Assembly (NCBI GenBank): GCA_029287355.1
Contig: JARFRH010000059.1
Span: 1-34,402, forward strand
Source of the DNA: Maribacter sp.
Lineage (GTDB): Bacteria; Bacteroidota; Bacteroidia; Flavobacteriales; Flavobacteriaceae
DNA: 34,402 nucleotides
Reading direction: 5' to 3'
The notes beneath the pieces are model-generated. The model had not been told where the DNA came from and searched no databases. It worked only from the letters and a program-made list of their open reading frames with translations. This document shows, piece by piece, positions 2,663 to 16,073 of the stretch. Position 1 is the first letter of the stretch. Each line of letters begins with the position of its first letter. The position numbers and the translations under genes were made by a program.

Positions 2663-3814
2663 TCATCCTATAATTTGCTTTAGGGTTTCCTTTCTACGAA
2701 TTTTGTCGGTATCCGTGCGTATGAAATTTGGAAGTGAGTAAACAGTTGTCGGTATTTCATATCGCTCTAAAGCACCATTTTCTTTTATCTCACGAAGTAT
2801 GGTCTCTAAATCCGTATTACCCTCACACACTAGGACCAATCTCTGACCAAATTCTTCATCGGGCATTCCCGCAACAAAAAAAGAATTGTTTAAGAAAGGA
2901 GCTAACTTTGCCTCGATCAGCTCTGGAAATAGTTTAACCCCGCCAGAATTGATGACATTGTCAAAACGACCCAACCATTCGAACTCCGTTTCTGATATCA
3001 GCTTAACGATGTCATTTGTGACTATGGTTTCTGAAGCGATTTTTGGAGCATCCAAAACAAGACAATGCCTTTCATCCAATGAGAAAGTAACATTTGGCAA
3101 GGCCTTAAAACCATGGTGTTTATCTACGCTCTTTCTGTCAACAGCGGTCTCGACTGTGTCTGTCTTGCCCGCAGACAGGCTCGACCTGACGGCTCCACTA
3201 TTAATTTTCTTAATAGCAACATGTGTAATCGTTTCCGTCATGCCATAAGTTTCATAAATCTGAGTGGACTTAGGCTGAACTTGTTTTTTCAATTGCATCG
3301 ATAGCGGGGCTCCACCAACTAATAGTATCATGATCTGTTCTATTTTAGCTAAACAATTTTGAAGCTGAAACGGCACCATGGCACAAAAATCATACTTCTT
3401 TTGTATGTGCTCCAGAGGGTTTGAGGATGGGGCAACATAATCCAATTCCAAACCTAAGACCATCGCTCGAACAAGCATCATCTTACCTGCTATGAATTGG
3501 GTTGGCAGGCATAGTAAACTTGTGTTCCCTGGCTGCAAATCAAAGAATGTTCCCGTCGCTATGGCCGAATTGACCATGTGTTGTTTTTTTAAAGGAATTG
3601 TTTTAGGTGTTCCTGTAGCACCTGAAGTATTGACTGTTAGCTCACTTGTTTGATCTAGCCAATCACTCAGAAAATCCCCTATATGCTGTTCATGTTCGAT
3701 ACCTTCCTTAATTAGGCTATAAGCGACTTCCTTAAGGTCATCAAAACCATAGCAAACTCCATTGAGTTTGAATTTTGGGTGTATGTTTTTAAAATTCAAG
3801 GAGGCTTCCATCAT
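2663..3814 (-). CDS. menE: o-succinylbenzoate-CoA ligase (AMP-binding)
   Basis: NTSGATGTPKTIPLKK P-loop, YETYGMTET motif, C-terminal GRFDNVINSGGVKLFPELIE; menC lies upstream. Start moved to MMEASLNFKNIHPKFKLNG (ORF track opens at 3841). Confidence 0.87.
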   Translation of the reverse strand: MMEASLNFKNIHPKFKLNGVCYGFDDLKEVAYSLIKEGIEHEQHIGDFLSDWLDQTSELTVNTSGATGTPKTIPLKKQHMVNSAIATGTFFDLQPGNTSLLCLPTQFIAGKMMLVRAMVLGLELDYVAPSSNPLEHIQKKYDFCAMVPFQLQNCLAKIEQIMILLVGGAPLSMQLKKQVQPKSTQIYETYGMTETITHVAIKKINSGAVRSSLSAGKTDTVETAVDRKSVDKHHGFKALPNVTFSLDERHCLVLDAPKIASETIVTNDIVKLISETEFEWLGRFDNVINSGGVKLFPELIEAKLAPFLNNSFFVAGMPDEEFGQRLVLVCEGNTDLETILREIKENGALERYEIPTTVYSLPNFIRTDTDKIRRKETLKQIIG

Positions 3815-4772
3815 TTGAAGTTCCAATGGGGTTCTGAGCAAGAAATACTTCCTTATCCACTACTTTTCCGAATAAACGCTCCTTCCAATTAGTCCAACCA
3901 TATTTTTTAGAAAAAATAAACAGCAAAATCGGATAAATGACCAAAACCGGGACAAACACATCCCATCCTAAAACAGGTTCTGAAATATCACGATAAAGTG
4001 ATTCCGTTTGAAATGCCGTCCAATCAGCAGTCACCAAAAGTGCTGTGGTGAGATTATTGGCTGTGTGAAAGCCTAAAGGCAATTCCAACCCTTCGTCCAT
4101 TAAGGTAAGAATTCCCAAGAAAAAACCCGTACCGATATAAAAGACCATAATACCATATCCCAATTTTTCAACTTCTGGATTAAATAGATGCATTACCCCA
4201 AATAGTATGGAAGTAAAGCATAGGGGTACCCATCTATTCTTAGCCAATAGGCCGATACCTTGCATCATATACCCTCGTAAATAGTATTCTTCCATGCTCG
4301 TCTGAATGGGAATCAAAACGATTGAAATCACCGCCAAAATCAGAAAAGGTTTCAAATTAAAATTGAACTCGTAATCTTTTGGAGATAACTGAATATCTAT
4401 GAATACGAATGCGATGGATATGATCGACCAAAGGATGAACGCGAAGAAAATACGCCCCCAGTCCACTTTCTTTCTAGAAGTCGTAAGTGACTTAATGGGC
4501 TGTTTGTGCACTAATTTTATCCAGATAAACAAGCAGGCCAGACCGATAACAAATGTCAATAGCATCAAAAACAGAAATAAGTTAGAACCCAAGGCTTCGG
4601 ACATTAGTCCCACATCTCCGCTGGCGAGGATGCTCATCGCATTTGATTTGGTAAATAAGGCAGCCATCAAAGGGGCCACGCCAAATATTTGCCAACCCAA
4701 AAAGATAACGCCGATACCCAAAAGGTAGCGCCAGAAGTCATGTTGACTTTTGTAAGCCTGTTCTATATACAT
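3789..4772 (-). CDS. CPBP-family intramembrane metalloprotease (type II CAAX protease-like)
   Basis: Multiple hydrophobic segments; EEYYLRG (EExxxR), FGVMHLF and FHTANN motifs. Confidence 0.87.
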   Translation of the reverse strand: MYIEQAYKSQHDFWRYLLGIGVIFLGWQIFGVAPLMAALFTKSNAMSILASGDVGLMSEALGSNLFLFLMLLTFVIGLACLFIWIKLVHKQPIKSLTTSRKKVDWGRIFFAFILWSIISIAFVFIDIQLSPKDYEFNFNLKPFLILAVISIVLIPIQTSMEEYYLRGYMMQGIGLLAKNRWVPLCFTSILFGVMHLFNPEVEKLGYGIMVFYIGTGFFLGILTLMDEGLELPLGFHTANNLTTALLVTADWTAFQTESLYRDISEPVLGWDVFVPVLVIYPILLFIFSKKYGWTNWKERLFGKVVDKEVFLAQNPIGTSNDGSLLEF

Positions 4773-5815
4773 AATTCTTTAATTAGATTGGTTTTCCAGG
4801 TTTTGTGTGGATCGTAAGATAATGTTCCTTCAGAAACCGTCAAAGGGCTTTCAAGATTATTGGTAAACAAACTACCTGTACCTAGACCCTGTGGCAAGGA
4901 GTTTTTCAAAGTGAAGGTCCATTGCGCAATCGCATTCAAACCGATATTACTTTCCAAGGCACTGGTAATCCACCATTCAATATTCAATTTTTCCGCTAGT
5001 TGAATCCACTCCGTACTACCCTTAAAGCCACCCACTAAACTGGGCTTTAAAATAATATAATGCGGATGAATCGATTGTAGCAATTTTTCTTTTTCCGGCA
5101 CATCGAATATTCCGATAAGTTCTTCATCCAACGCGATGTCCAAGGGGGTTTGGGCACATAAGTCACTCATTTCCGAAATATTGCCTTGTTTAATAGGCTG
5201 TTCAATGGAATGAAGCTCAAGTTCAGATAAAACCTTTAACTTTTCTAGCGCATCGGTCTTTGAAAAAGCCCCATTTGCATCTACTCGCAGCTCGATTTGT
5301 TCTTTGGAAAAATTATTTCTTATGGATTTCAAAATAGCGACTTCCTTTTCAAAATCAATCGCTCCGATCTTCATTTTTATACATTGGAAGCCTTCCTTTA
5401 ACTTTTGCTCAATCTGTTCATTCATAAAGGCCTCATCTCCCATCCAAATCAATCCGTTAATTGGAATGCAGCACGCACCCGATGTAAATTCGGAAGGAAA
5501 AAGTTCAAATGGATTTTTAGATGACAGGGACAAAAAAGCCTGTTCGACGCCAAATTGAATACTGGGAAAGTTTCGTAGCGCTTCCCATAATCCGTCTTTT
5601 CCTAAATGGATATTGGAACAGGTCCATGTTAAGGTATCTTCATATTCCCGTACATTATCGATACTCAATCCCCTTAAAATACCGCATTCCCCAATGCCAT
5701 ATCTCCCCTCTTCCTCTAAAATCAAAAACCAGGTTTCTTTTTGGGTTAGAACTCCGCGAGAAGTTCCACTAGGTCTCTTAAAATCGAGAATATATTTTTT
5801 ATAGGTTGCCTGCAT
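4763..5815 (-). CDS. menC: o-succinylbenzoate synthase (enolase superfamily)
   Basis: IKMKIG, LRVDANGAF, EQP, ALDEEL, ILKPSLVGG, TSALESNIGLNAIAQ motifs; adjacency to menE. Confidence 0.88.
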   Translation of the reverse strand: MQATYKKYILDFKRPSGTSRGVLTQKETWFLILEEEGRYGIGECGILRGLSIDNVREYEDTLTWTCSNIHLGKDGLWEALRNFPSIQFGVEQAFLSLSSKNPFELFPSEFTSGACCIPINGLIWMGDEAFMNEQIEQKLKEGFQCIKMKIGAIDFEKEVAILKSIRNNFSKEQIELRVDANGAFSKTDALEKLKVLSELELHSIEQPIKQGNISEMSDLCAQTPLDIALDEELIGIFDVPEKEKLLQSIHPHYIILKPSLVGGFKGSTEWIQLAEKLNIEWWITSALESNIGLNAIAQWTFTLKNSLPQGLGTGSLFTNNLESPLTVSEGTLSYDPHKTWKTNLIKELCI

Positions 5816-9924: not shown

Positions 9925-10824
9925 TTAATTAAAAGCGATATAAAACAATAAGGCCAGTAAAAATGTGCTCAAGGCCAATTTTTTTAGTTCAGGATCAAGT
10001 AAATAGGGTTCCTTTGTTCGATATACTTTCAGCAGATGAAACGCAATCGGCACAAAAGCCAATAGCGGAATCAACTGGTAATATTCCGAAAAGGTGTTTA
10101 TGATGAAAACAAGCATACTCACAAAGCTGGAAATGAGTAGGATATAATGATATTTCTTCCCATTTTCAAAACCGATTTTCACAACGATTGTATTCTTATT
10201 GGCTTTTTTATCCGATTTAATATCACGCAGGTTATTCAAATTGAGCACCCCTACGCTCAGGGCGCCAATAGTAATGGCCGGTAACAAAGAGAAATCAGTT
10301 AAATACTTTGTGAATAAGAACATCGAGCCCAATACACCAACTAGTCCGAAAAAAATGAAAACGAAAACATCTCCGAATCCTCTATATCCATAAGCCGATT
10401 TACCAACTGTATATTTTATTGCGGCCCAGATGCTTAAAAGACCCAAGCCCCCAAAAAGAAGAAAATAACCAATATTTTCAACACCGAATGAGGTGTATAA
10501 TAAGGCAACTACGAACAATAGACTCACAAAGATGGCCACGACAATTCCATTTTTAAGTTCTTGTCGCGATAAGCTCCCGCTTTGTAAAGCGCGCTTGGGG
10601 CCAATTCTATCTGAATTGTCTGTGCCTTTTACACCATCGCCATAATCATTGGCGAAATTTGAGGTGACTTGAAAACTTATCGTTGTGAACAAAGCAAGTA
10701 TGAATATTAGTAGGTTGTTTTTTTCATAAAGATTAGCAAGAGCGGTACCGACTATAACGCCTGAAATTGAAAGGGGCAGCGTTCTTGGCCTAGCTGCGTC
10801 TAGCCATGTACTAATTTTTGGCAA
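9925..10824 (-). CDS. menA: 1,4-dihydroxy-2-naphthoate polyprenyltransferase
   Basis: NFANDYGDGVKGTDN prenyl-PP binding motif, second motif NNLRDIKSDKKANK, multiple TM segments; TTG start. Confidence 0.88.
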   Translation of the reverse strand: MPKISTWLDAARPRTLPLSISGVIVGTALANLYEKNNLLIFILALFTTISFQVTSNFANDYGDGVKGTDNSDRIGPKRALQSGSLSRQELKNGIVVAIFVSLLFVVALLYTSFGVENIGYFLLFGGLGLLSIWAAIKYTVGKSAYGYRGFGDVFVFIFFGLVGVLGSMFLFTKYLTDFSLLPAITIGALSVGVLNLNNLRDIKSDKKANKNTIVVKIGFENGKKYHYILLISSFVSMLVFIINTFSEYYQLIPLLAFVPIAFHLLKVYRTKEPYLLDPELKKLALSTFLLALLFYIAFN

Positions 10825-12998: not shown

Positions 12999-14750
12999 CT
13001 AAGATATAAAATCGAAGTAACCAAGCAAAATTTTATCGTTTAAGATTCTTGGAGTATTGACCTCCAAAAGACTAGGCCCTGTTTTTTTGTGAAAAAACTC
13101 CGGTAGGATTTTTTCTAAACTTTTTTTATTTTCTACGACGAAATGTTCAATTCCGAACATTTTGCACAAATGAGAGACATCTCGATTTTGAACAGTTTCA
13201 AAATACCTTTCAAAATTTGGGGAATCCTCCCTTCCCGGCAGAATCCTAAAAATACCCCCTCCACCGTTATTTATCAATATGATTTTAAAATCCGAACGGA
13301 TGTAATCATTCCAAAGTCCATTACTGTCATATAGAAAGCTTAAATCGCCGGTGATAAGCAAAGTTGGTTCTTTATGATATACGGATGCTCCCACAGCAGT
13401 CGAAGTACTTCCATCGATACCACTGGTGCCTCGATTACAAAAAACCTTGACCTTGGGGTTCATATCGAATAACTGCATATAGCGAACCGTAGAACTATTG
13501 GCAAGCTGGACATGAAAATCATCGGGAATGTGGTTGCAAATATGGTAAAAAGCGAGCAAGTCAGAAAAAGCGATCTTCCCAAGATAAGCTTCCCTTTTTT
13601 CAACATAGTGCCCCTTCATAGATTTCCAATATGAAAAATATTCACTTTCGGCCAGCTTTGAATCTTCGAGAAATTCCGCGAAAAACCGATTTGGGTCTAC
13701 CTTAAAGTGGCGTGTAAGTGAAAAGAAGGTATTATAGGCCTTTAGTTGGTCAATATGCCAGTGCTCCTGGGGTTGGTGATGTCTTAGAAAGGCCTTAATT
13801 TTTTTGGAAACGATCAATCCACCGAAAGTGAGTAAAATATCCGGCTTCAGTTTTTTGAATAATTCTTCGCTATCTTCTGATTTCTCAATGGGTGCTACAA
13901 TACTATCGATACTAGGGAAGAAATTCGGATGATGCAGATTCGAAGTCGATTCGGTCAATACCAGCACCGAAGGATCATTCCCCAGAATATCTAAAAAACG
14001 TTGTTCTATAGCATTCGGATGATTGACACCCACTAGCACTATTTTTCGTTTAGCCGAACCCCAAAGCCCCTTATAAAGGCCCATGTCGGCAACACTTTCT
14101 TGTTCCACCTCTCCATTCGAAATTTCAGGTTTCACAGAAGGTTCATTGAGAACATTGTACAACGGCTCTTCAAAAGGCACATTGATATGAACTGGCAACC
14201 CAGTGCTCAAGGTCGTATTGAAAGCCTTATTCAACTCCAAATCATTATACGCTTGCACTTTTTGCTGCGTTGCAATCACTCCCACTTCGGAAATCAATTC
14301 CGGAGCATATTTTTCAACACGATCCGTAGCATGGGCAACATCTTGTTTCAGGTTGGCGGAATACCCAATATGTCTATGAAAAACATCATCTTGGCGAATG
14401 GTCTGGCCGTCCCCTACGTCGATTTTATAAACAGGCCTATCCGCTGAAATCACAACCAAGGGAATATCGCTGTAGAATGCCTCCGCAATAGCGGGATAAT
14501 AATTGAGTAAGGCACTGCCGGATGTACAGACTACGGCCACGGGTTTGCGTAATTGCTGGGCTATACCAAGAGCGAAAAAGGCCGCACTTCGCTCGTCAAC
14601 AATACTAAAACACTTAAAAAAAGAATCTTCTGTAAAACTTATGGTAAGCGGGGCATTCCGCGAACCCGGAGAAATAACAATATTTTCAATGCCCTTGGCC
14701 TTGCAATGCATTACTACGCTTTGTGCCGAGGGAATACTGGAATGCTTCAT
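12999..14750 (-). CDS. menD: 2-succinyl-5-enolpyruvyl-6-hydroxy-3-cyclohexene-1-carboxylate synthase
   Basis: ThDP fold: ISPGSRNAPL, DERSAAFFALG, TSGSALLNYYPA, NRGTSGIDGSTSTAVG, TGDLSFLYDSNGLW. Start taken at MKHSSIPSAQ (14750), not 14771. Confidence 0.92.
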   Translation of the reverse strand: MKHSSIPSAQSVVMHCKAKGIENIVISPGSRNAPLTISFTEDSFFKCFSIVDERSAAFFALGIAQQLRKPVAVVCTSGSALLNYYPAIAEAFYSDIPLVVISADRPVYKIDVGDGQTIRQDDVFHRHIGYSANLKQDVAHATDRVEKYAPELISEVGVIATQQKVQAYNDLELNKAFNTTLSTGLPVHINVPFEEPLYNVLNEPSVKPEISNGEVEQESVADMGLYKGLWGSAKRKIVLVGVNHPNAIEQRFLDILGNDPSVLVLTESTSNLHHPNFFPSIDSIVAPIEKSEDSEELFKKLKPDILLTFGGLIVSKKIKAFLRHHQPQEHWHIDQLKAYNTFFSLTRHFKVDPNRFFAEFLEDSKLAESEYFSYWKSMKGHYVEKREAYLGKIAFSDLLAFYHICNHIPDDFHVQLANSSTVRYMQLFDMNPKVKVFCNRGTSGIDGSTSTAVGASVYHKEPTLLITGDLSFLYDSNGLWNDYIRSDFKIILINNGGGGIFRILPGREDSPNFERYFETVQNRDVSHLCKMFGIEHFVVENKKSLEKILPEFFHKKTGPSLLEVNTPRILNDKILLGYFDFIS

Positions 14751-14783
14751 TGTAACAAAAATACGATGCAAACCGCTCTTATG

Positions 14784-14963: not shown

Positions 14964-16073
14964 CTACGCACTGGTCAATACCTTGAGCATGGTATTGGTT
15001 TTGGCCACGGTCTCTTCCCATTCCTTATCTGGGTCGGAATCTTTGGTCACTCCTCCTCCAACGTAAATGAAGGCTTTGTTTTCTTTGAGTTGCATACAGC
15101 GCAGGTTTACAAAAAAAGTAGTAGTCGTTTTGATGGATTTATAAACCTGGTTTTCCTGATTTTTTCTCTGGGACGGACGTGAAGTTTCGACTTTCAGATT
15201 CAACTCACCTAAATAGCCGGTATAATATTCTCGGTCATAGTTTTCATTTTCTAAAATGAATTCTTTACTCAGGCCCATAGGCAGACCGCAAACCGCTGGC
15301 GTCGGATGAAGTGCATTGACAATTTCTAACAGACGGCTCTTTTCGTATTGGGCCATGATCTTGGTACGTAAGTGTAAAAGTTTTCCCGCCCGTATCGTCT
15401 CTCTTTCAGAAATACTGAGGTTGGTAACTTTGTCTTTTAAAGAACTCGAGATATAATTCGTGACCAATTGCTGTTCCTCCAATTCTTTCATTCCCCAGAT
15501 GGGATTGTCATCTTCTGCATACACCTGAGTACCTGCCAATGACATCGTCGTGATTCGTTGGTTCTCACCTTTTAGAAGTATTTCTGGGGTCGCGCCAAGC
15601 CAAGTGCCAATTTTAGGATGATGCCAGAGGTAACAAAAGGCATTGTCATAACTACCCAGAAGTTTTTGTAATAAATTCAATGGAGCTGTTGAACAATCAA
15701 TTTCCTCCTTCCTTGAAAGCACCACTTTTTGTAGTTCATGATTTCGAATGCGATCAATGCCATTTTTTACAAGATTGATATGAAATTCCTTTTGGGTGGC
15801 ATCTAATTTGATTCCTAGATGCTCTATCTCCGAGGTTTTCAAAGAAATAGGCATTACTTCCAAACGTTCATCGCAATGCAATAAAACAATTTCTTTCTGT
15901 GTATCGAACGGTGCAAAAACAAATCCCGATTCAGTGAAATCAGCAACATGATGCAAGCTAGCATCATCTTGAAATAAAGCTACAACATGCTGTTCCTTGG
16001 GTTTTCGATAGACTACGAAAGGTAGGTTTTTCGAATAATGGGCAGCAATTTTATTTGTGAATTCCTTGAACAT
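14964..16073 (-). CDS. menF: Isochorismate synthase
   Basis: Chorismate-binding motifs GTWLGATPEILLK, TMSLAGTQ, HPTPAVCGLP, REYYTGYLG. Confidence 0.9.
   Translation of the reverse strand: MFKEFTNKIAAHYSKNLPFVVYRKPKEQHVVALFQDDASLHHVADFTESGFVFAPFDTQKEIVLLHCDERLEVMPISLKTSEIEHLGIKLDATQKEFHINLVKNGIDRIRNHELQKVVLSRKEEIDCSTAPLNLLQKLLGSYDNAFCYLWHHPKIGTWLGATPEILLKGENQRITTMSLAGTQVYAEDDNPIWGMKELEEQQLVTNYISSSLKDKVTNLSISERETIRAGKLLHLRTKIMAQYEKSRLLEIVNALHPTPAVCGLPMGLSKEFILENENYDREYYTGYLGELNLKVETSRPSQRKNQENQVYKSIKTTTTFFVNLRCMQLKENKAFIYVGGGVTKDSDPDKEWEETVAKTNTMLKVLTSA

Follow-up and report, generated by a model that had tools for sequence, protein, structure and literature searches.

A short palindromic repeat, dispersed and non-autonomous, with the core TCGAGC..GTCGAGA, very probably accounts for a segment of menE in a Maribacter genome: the segment would be an in-frame copy with a nested apical hairpin, most likely kept in place through a tolerance filter acting on one loop of the enzyme. 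Rickettsia and a few other bacteria are the main source of what is known about in-frame palindromic repeats within genes. A Flavobacteriaceae group offers filled, decayed and empty sites at which the process can be followed in conserved enzymes; with one MenE loop and apparently about ten entries into it by several repeat families, tolerance, targeting and recruitment of mobile-DNA peptides become countable and testable. One small enzyme site becomes a natural test of bacterial tolerance of mobile DNA within genes, and the finding poses the question of what moves such repeats when a RAYT is absent.

The window, by which we mean the whole 34,402-nt stretch that was analysed, is part of contig C41 of the parent draft genome G000 (4.23 Mb in 353 contigs, 95.8% complete, 2.8% contamination). 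The best NCBIfam match of its menE gene in a profile search is TIGR01923 menE (E = 2.7e-34, under the curated cut-off); the closest relatives of the protein are from Flavobacteriaceae, and several 2-succinylbenzoate-CoA ligases are among its PDB relatives. Judged by sequence appearance, neighbouring ORFs look like menaquinone genes:

2663–3841, minus strand: menE (o-succinylbenzoate-CoA ligase), an ORF of 392 aa with a TTG start as listed
4763–5815: MenC-like ORF
9925–10824: MenA-like ORF
12999–14771: MenD-like ORF
14964–16073: isochorismate-synthase-like ORF

The region of MenE that follows YGMTET..N is a length-variable loop. Here an earlier note on this DNA had set apart a 30-aa segment (3110–3199, minus strand) between conserved blocks that it named, containing an inverted repeat at 3150–3184 with 10 of 13 arm positions matching. 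Coordinates, translation and inverted repeat are all correct, and the segment is, as the note had it, GC-richer than its surroundings (51% for the loop DNA versus 41% for the whole gene). The inserted element does lie inside this segment but occupies only about half of it, covering 15 of the 30 loop residues; at 45 nt, or 15 codons, it keeps the reading frame as claimed, and the other loop residues form a tail without repeat match. The features of the loop are as follows:

3110–3199, minus strand: long variable MenE loop SGAVRSSLSAGKTDTVETAVDRKSVDKHHG, residues 215–244, from alignment with MenE of 79 family members and 12 congeners
3146–3190, minus strand: inserted repeat unit GTCAGGTCGAGCCTGTCTGCGGGCAAGACAGACACAGTCGAGACC, encoding VRSSLSAGKTDTVET (residues 218–232), with copies elsewhere
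3160–3178, minus strand: nested apical hairpin CTGTCT-GCGGGCA-AGACAG with a perfect 6-bp stem; other copies have nested hairpins at the same position
3122–3187, minus strand: predicted disordered stretch, residues 219–240, pLDDT < 50

An AlphaFold2 model of MenE (44-sequence alignment) has a mean pLDDT of 88.9, and residues 219–240, which fall within the insert and the tail, are its sole stretch below 50. The prediction fits a surface loop tolerant of insertion. The 12 codons 3′ of the repeat (window 3110–3145, AVDRKSVDKHHG) are part of the lengthened loop and match no repeat found; this tail opens with GCTGTTGACAG and may be what is left of a second unit.

The insert is laid out as GTCAGG-TCGAGC-(nested hairpin)-GTCGAGA-CC, its tag end reading CCGTCAGG, and it encodes, without a stop, a hydrophilic peptide rich in Ser, Thr, Glu and Lys. 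Folded as single-stranded DNA, the single 45-nt unit scores z = -0.37 and is equalled by 66 of 200 shuffles. The inverted repeat, which the note had read as the signature of a palindromic element, is thus at chance level when taken alone, and it is the dispersed copies, with no control matches, that identify the menE segment as a repeat. The pattern GGTCGAGC N{0,28} AGTCGAGA has two matches in the 4.2-Mb genome and none for the reversed-pattern control. The outer parts of the window unit are identical to those of a dispersed copy on another contig (G000:C236, GTCAGGTCGAGCGGAGTCGAGACC), and the 24-nt form lacking the nested hairpin occurs in eight copies when up to 3 mismatches are allowed; one copy agrees at every specified position (control 0). 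At ≤1 mismatch, the 16-nt core TCGAGCGSAGTCGAGA is present 19 times in G000 (reversed control 0) and in 14 of the 15 genomes of the genus, with a maximum of 57 copies and one control match overall. The parent-genome search thereby gave, beyond these 19 core copies, one more nested-hairpin copy, G000:C183, which together with copies in G004 and G003 forms the nested-hairpin relatives of the window unit. Since copies of equal length, 37 nt, occur in G004 (TCGAGCCTGCCTGACCGGTAGGCAGGCACAGTCGAGA) and at G000:C183 (TCGAGCCTTCCTGTTCGGCAGACAGGCAGAGTCGAGA), the window copy belongs to a recognisable nested-hairpin variant; enlarged-loop cores (TCGAGC N{8,36} AGTCGAGA) have 12 matches in the genus and none in the control.

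The nested hairpin was considered as the repeated part and rejected: the 19-nt hairpin matched itself and one site with 3 mismatches, and the outer core is what is repeated. BLAST of the 96-nt segment against its own genome returned the self-match only, the query being too short and diverged for BLAST. In several genomes the core copies are frequently paired in inverted orientation at a spacing of about 38 bp and have TGTCA/TGACA as an outer tag; this paired form is commonly intergenic in the genome and the genus, and the hairpin formed by one 70-nt inverted pair is near-perfect (z = -7.5). One locus of G001 (L232, G001:C1:52329-60754) holds an unusual cluster of seven exact core copies in about 8.5 kb.

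The same repeat lies inside other genes, as expected of the palindromic element colonising ORFs that the note had proposed: in-frame copies are also present in three further enzymes of G000, HisA, MetG and ValS. With MenE these make at least four in-ORF copies in G000 among the copies examined. The nested copy at G000:C183 lies within hisA, and its frame and orientation there match those of the menE copy (..KTSSVTSSLPVRQTGRVEKQ-LKLIASGG..). The protein matches TIGR00007 above the NCBIfam cut-off, and its alignment with the HisA structure 4gj1 (PDB) has a 15-residue gap at the repeat. Among congeners, the hisA site is filled by simple or nested copies in G001, G004, G006, G013 and G014, holds perhaps a decayed copy in G008, and is empty in G005, G007, G009, G010, G011 and G012; the genus tree is poorly supported and does not fix the number of insertions. 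The repeat at this site in G001 HisA (L248) contains a nested hairpin of another sequence, CCCTCGACTGTGCTCGGGACAGGCTCC, which suggests that such hairpins are gained or altered inside existing repeats. The MetG and ValS copies of G000 are simple copies whose sites are shared with G001; the latter has further in-ORF copies in an ATP-dependent DNA ligase, a BioF-like enzyme, a ketosynthase-like protein and a long protein without NCBIfam match; a copy in GltX of G006 is antisense. Counted by distinct site, the commonest in-ORF reading is sense frame 0, giving V[ST]SSGVE.

This distribution bears on whether the hairpin acts in the mRNA, as a regulatory or structural RNA whose coding is incidental. 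The nested palindrome and the view that many REPs act as RNA (PMC3733652) speak for such a role, yet the repeat stands mid-gene in several unrelated genes, the region has no Rfam match at E ≤ 1 and the unit shows no folding excess (z being computed for single-stranded DNA); we regard an RNA function as highly improbable, and a structured RNA was rejected as a candidate on the Rfam result. A plasmid origin was likewise sought and gave no match.

Across 193 distinct Flavobacteriaceae MenE genes (212,574 nt), the loop, which makes up 4.7% of the sequence, is 9–43 aa long with a median of 16, against 36 in the window on the same measure, and it is shorter than the window's in 11 of 12 congeners. 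Some of these loops translate other dispersed repeats, such as RHAELVSAS and SLRGETTKQSVE. The CATTGCGAG..AAGCAATCT repeat is dispersed in 7 of the 11 genomes concerned and the CATNCTGANNYTGTYKMAGNATC repeat in 11 of 12, both with controls of 0. Altogether repeat families A–D, which can be counted as three or four, have 14 matches in the 193 genes, 13 of them within the loop and all 13 of these in the sense orientation; reversed-pattern controls gave none. The families are distributed as follows:

Family A: the window, L277, L289 and L357
Family B: L017, L036, L279 and L294
Families C/D: L029, L065, L283 (tandem pair) and L296

Under uniform placement, margins included, this concentration in the loop has a binomial p of about 3e-14, a value that treats matches as independent and is weakened by shared descent. 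The reading frame is constant inside each family. Tag ends of several B and C copies read CGTCATTGCGAG or CGTCATGCTGAA. Fitch counts of gains of intact copies on a loop-masked single-gene MenE tree are 4 for A, 2 for B and 4 for C, which suggests about ten separate insertions into the loop, an estimate given that tree support is moderate and losses are possible. Outside the genus, 549 kb of DNA surrounding menE in 80 relatives contains no copy of the family A core (≤1 mismatch), although the family is found inside MenE of three other genera. The only match off the loop is a second repeat match in L357, near the N-terminus (nt 55–80 of the MenE frame, 2 mismatches), possibly upstream of the true start.

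The wide spread of lengths across the family, and a hairpin that folds no better than shuffles, would suit a loop that is simply hypervariable and whose inverted repeat arose by chance, without a mobile element. This reading does not account for outer parts identical to dispersed copies at zero control matches, for nested copies of the same length elsewhere, for in-frame copies in other enzymes or for recurrent repeats in the MenE loop of other genera, and we consider it very unlikely.

The note had further claimed that the segment is absent from relatives. Alignment bears this out for most of them, which lack a segment of such length, and it fails for one congener, G014, whose loop equals the window's in length. 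There, 43 of 90 nt are identical, compared with a codon-shuffle mean of 23.6, and none of 5,000 shuffles scored as high; the 3′ half of the repeat is lost. On this comparison the G014 loop is a homologous, decayed version of the window segment, and so the insertion probably predates the split between the window lineage and G014 and is decaying in the latter. Neither outcome by which the note would have been refuted was observed, since further copies exist in the parent genome and this congener alone has a homologous segment; the note's interpretation is essentially borne out.

In the explanation that we favour, some process, either trans-acting or linked to replication, would have copied the dispersed repeat into menE, probably earlier than the divergence from this nearest congener. 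The unit would have survived because it has no stop in this frame, because its length of 45 nt leaves the frame intact, and because its hydrophilic peptide falls in a surface loop already variable in length, outside the folded core; after insertion it would drift and decay, as in G014. Its peptide is probably without a catalytic role. The recurrence of repeats in one loop most likely reflects a tolerance filter, by which insertions elsewhere in the gene are lost, and not site-specific targeting.

Were the repeats or the machinery that mobilises them to prefer the menE site, recurrence would mean targeting and not tolerance alone. Three or four families in the same loop, all in the sense orientation, would be expected of such a preference, as would the MenE loop of L283, where two different elements stand in tandem, TCATTCTGAACACAGTGAAGAATCT then CATGTTGAACTAGTTTCAGCATC, read as CHSEHSEESIRHVELVSAS. 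The other in-ORF sites (HisA, MetG, ValS, GltX, DNA ligase, BioF) differ, however, the loop DNA flanking the insertions is not conserved, and the families differ in sequence, which makes a single machinery improbable; we judge site-directed insertion unlikely. Selection might instead favour a longer hydrophilic MenE loop, for solubility or partner binding for example, with the repeats as a supply of peptide. The strict strand and frame bias of each family in MenE and the retention of an equal-length loop in G014 despite strong divergence are consistent with such recruitment, but avoidance of stops and hydrophobic peptides could also produce the bias, most MenE proteins (median loop 16 aa) are without the insert, the loop is predicted to be disordered and its lengths vary freely, so that recruitment of the peptide seems quite unlikely. 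A broader proposal, that the MenE loop is a family-wide recurrent site for unrelated mobile palindromes, those of each family read in a single frame, at which repeat peptides are actively captured and kept as a loop extension, by selection or by targeting, is one that we advance tentatively and with considerable doubt; if true, it would amount to a route of convergent protein evolution whose source is mobile DNA that has no known transposase.

As a description of how the element works, the note's analogy with Rickettsia palindromic elements is sound: the menE repeat behaves like one of these elements or like an intragenic REP, with dispersed copies in the same genome, in-frame copies in unrelated genes and empty sites in orthologues. 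Rickettsia palindromic elements are likewise short palindromic repeats found between genes and in frame within ORFs of conserved proteins, to which they add a peptide; here the hosts are Flavobacteriaceae and the unit of 24–45 nt is usually single within ORFs, the likeness claimed here being one of working. GTAG- and CGTC-tagged REPs are 20–40-nt palindromes, single or in inverted dimers and mostly intergenic (Di Nocera et al. 2013, PMC3733652). RPE-4 and RPE-6 are among the intragenic REPs that the same study describes; tRNA synthetases and DNA ligase are examples of enzymes that carry such copies in frame, and in recB two Xanthomonas species have different REPs at roughly one site (PMC3733652). 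'Flavobacter' is absent from the main text of that paper. The present repeats share the unit size and the inverted pairing with these REPs. They may differ in the tag, the main family mostly having TGTC, not CGTC, before the core, and they differ in that one loop has received three or four families, over many genera. The literature searched contained nothing relevant on intragenic repeats in Flavobacteria or Bacteroidetes; most subscription journals lay outside its coverage, and novelty is provisional.

From REP biology, a RAYT is the obvious candidate for the mover. REPINs and BIMEs also consist of inverted unit pairs that form one long hairpin, as here, but we found no RAYT association: Y1_Tnp matches are absent from G000 and from the copy-rich G001, G013 and G014, an absence that is not absolute for the 95.8% complete G000, and the stretches retrieved around Y1_Tnp hits of the genus (about 1.5 kb per side where the contig allowed) contain no core. 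RAYT was rejected as the mover for now on these grounds. A past or distant RAYT is possible, as is replication slippage or template switching at hairpins. No duplication of a target site was established. G002, G003, G009 and G012 carry several genes or fragments of Y1_Tnp, of which some contain internal stops, yet their core copies are few or moderate in number, with none in G009.
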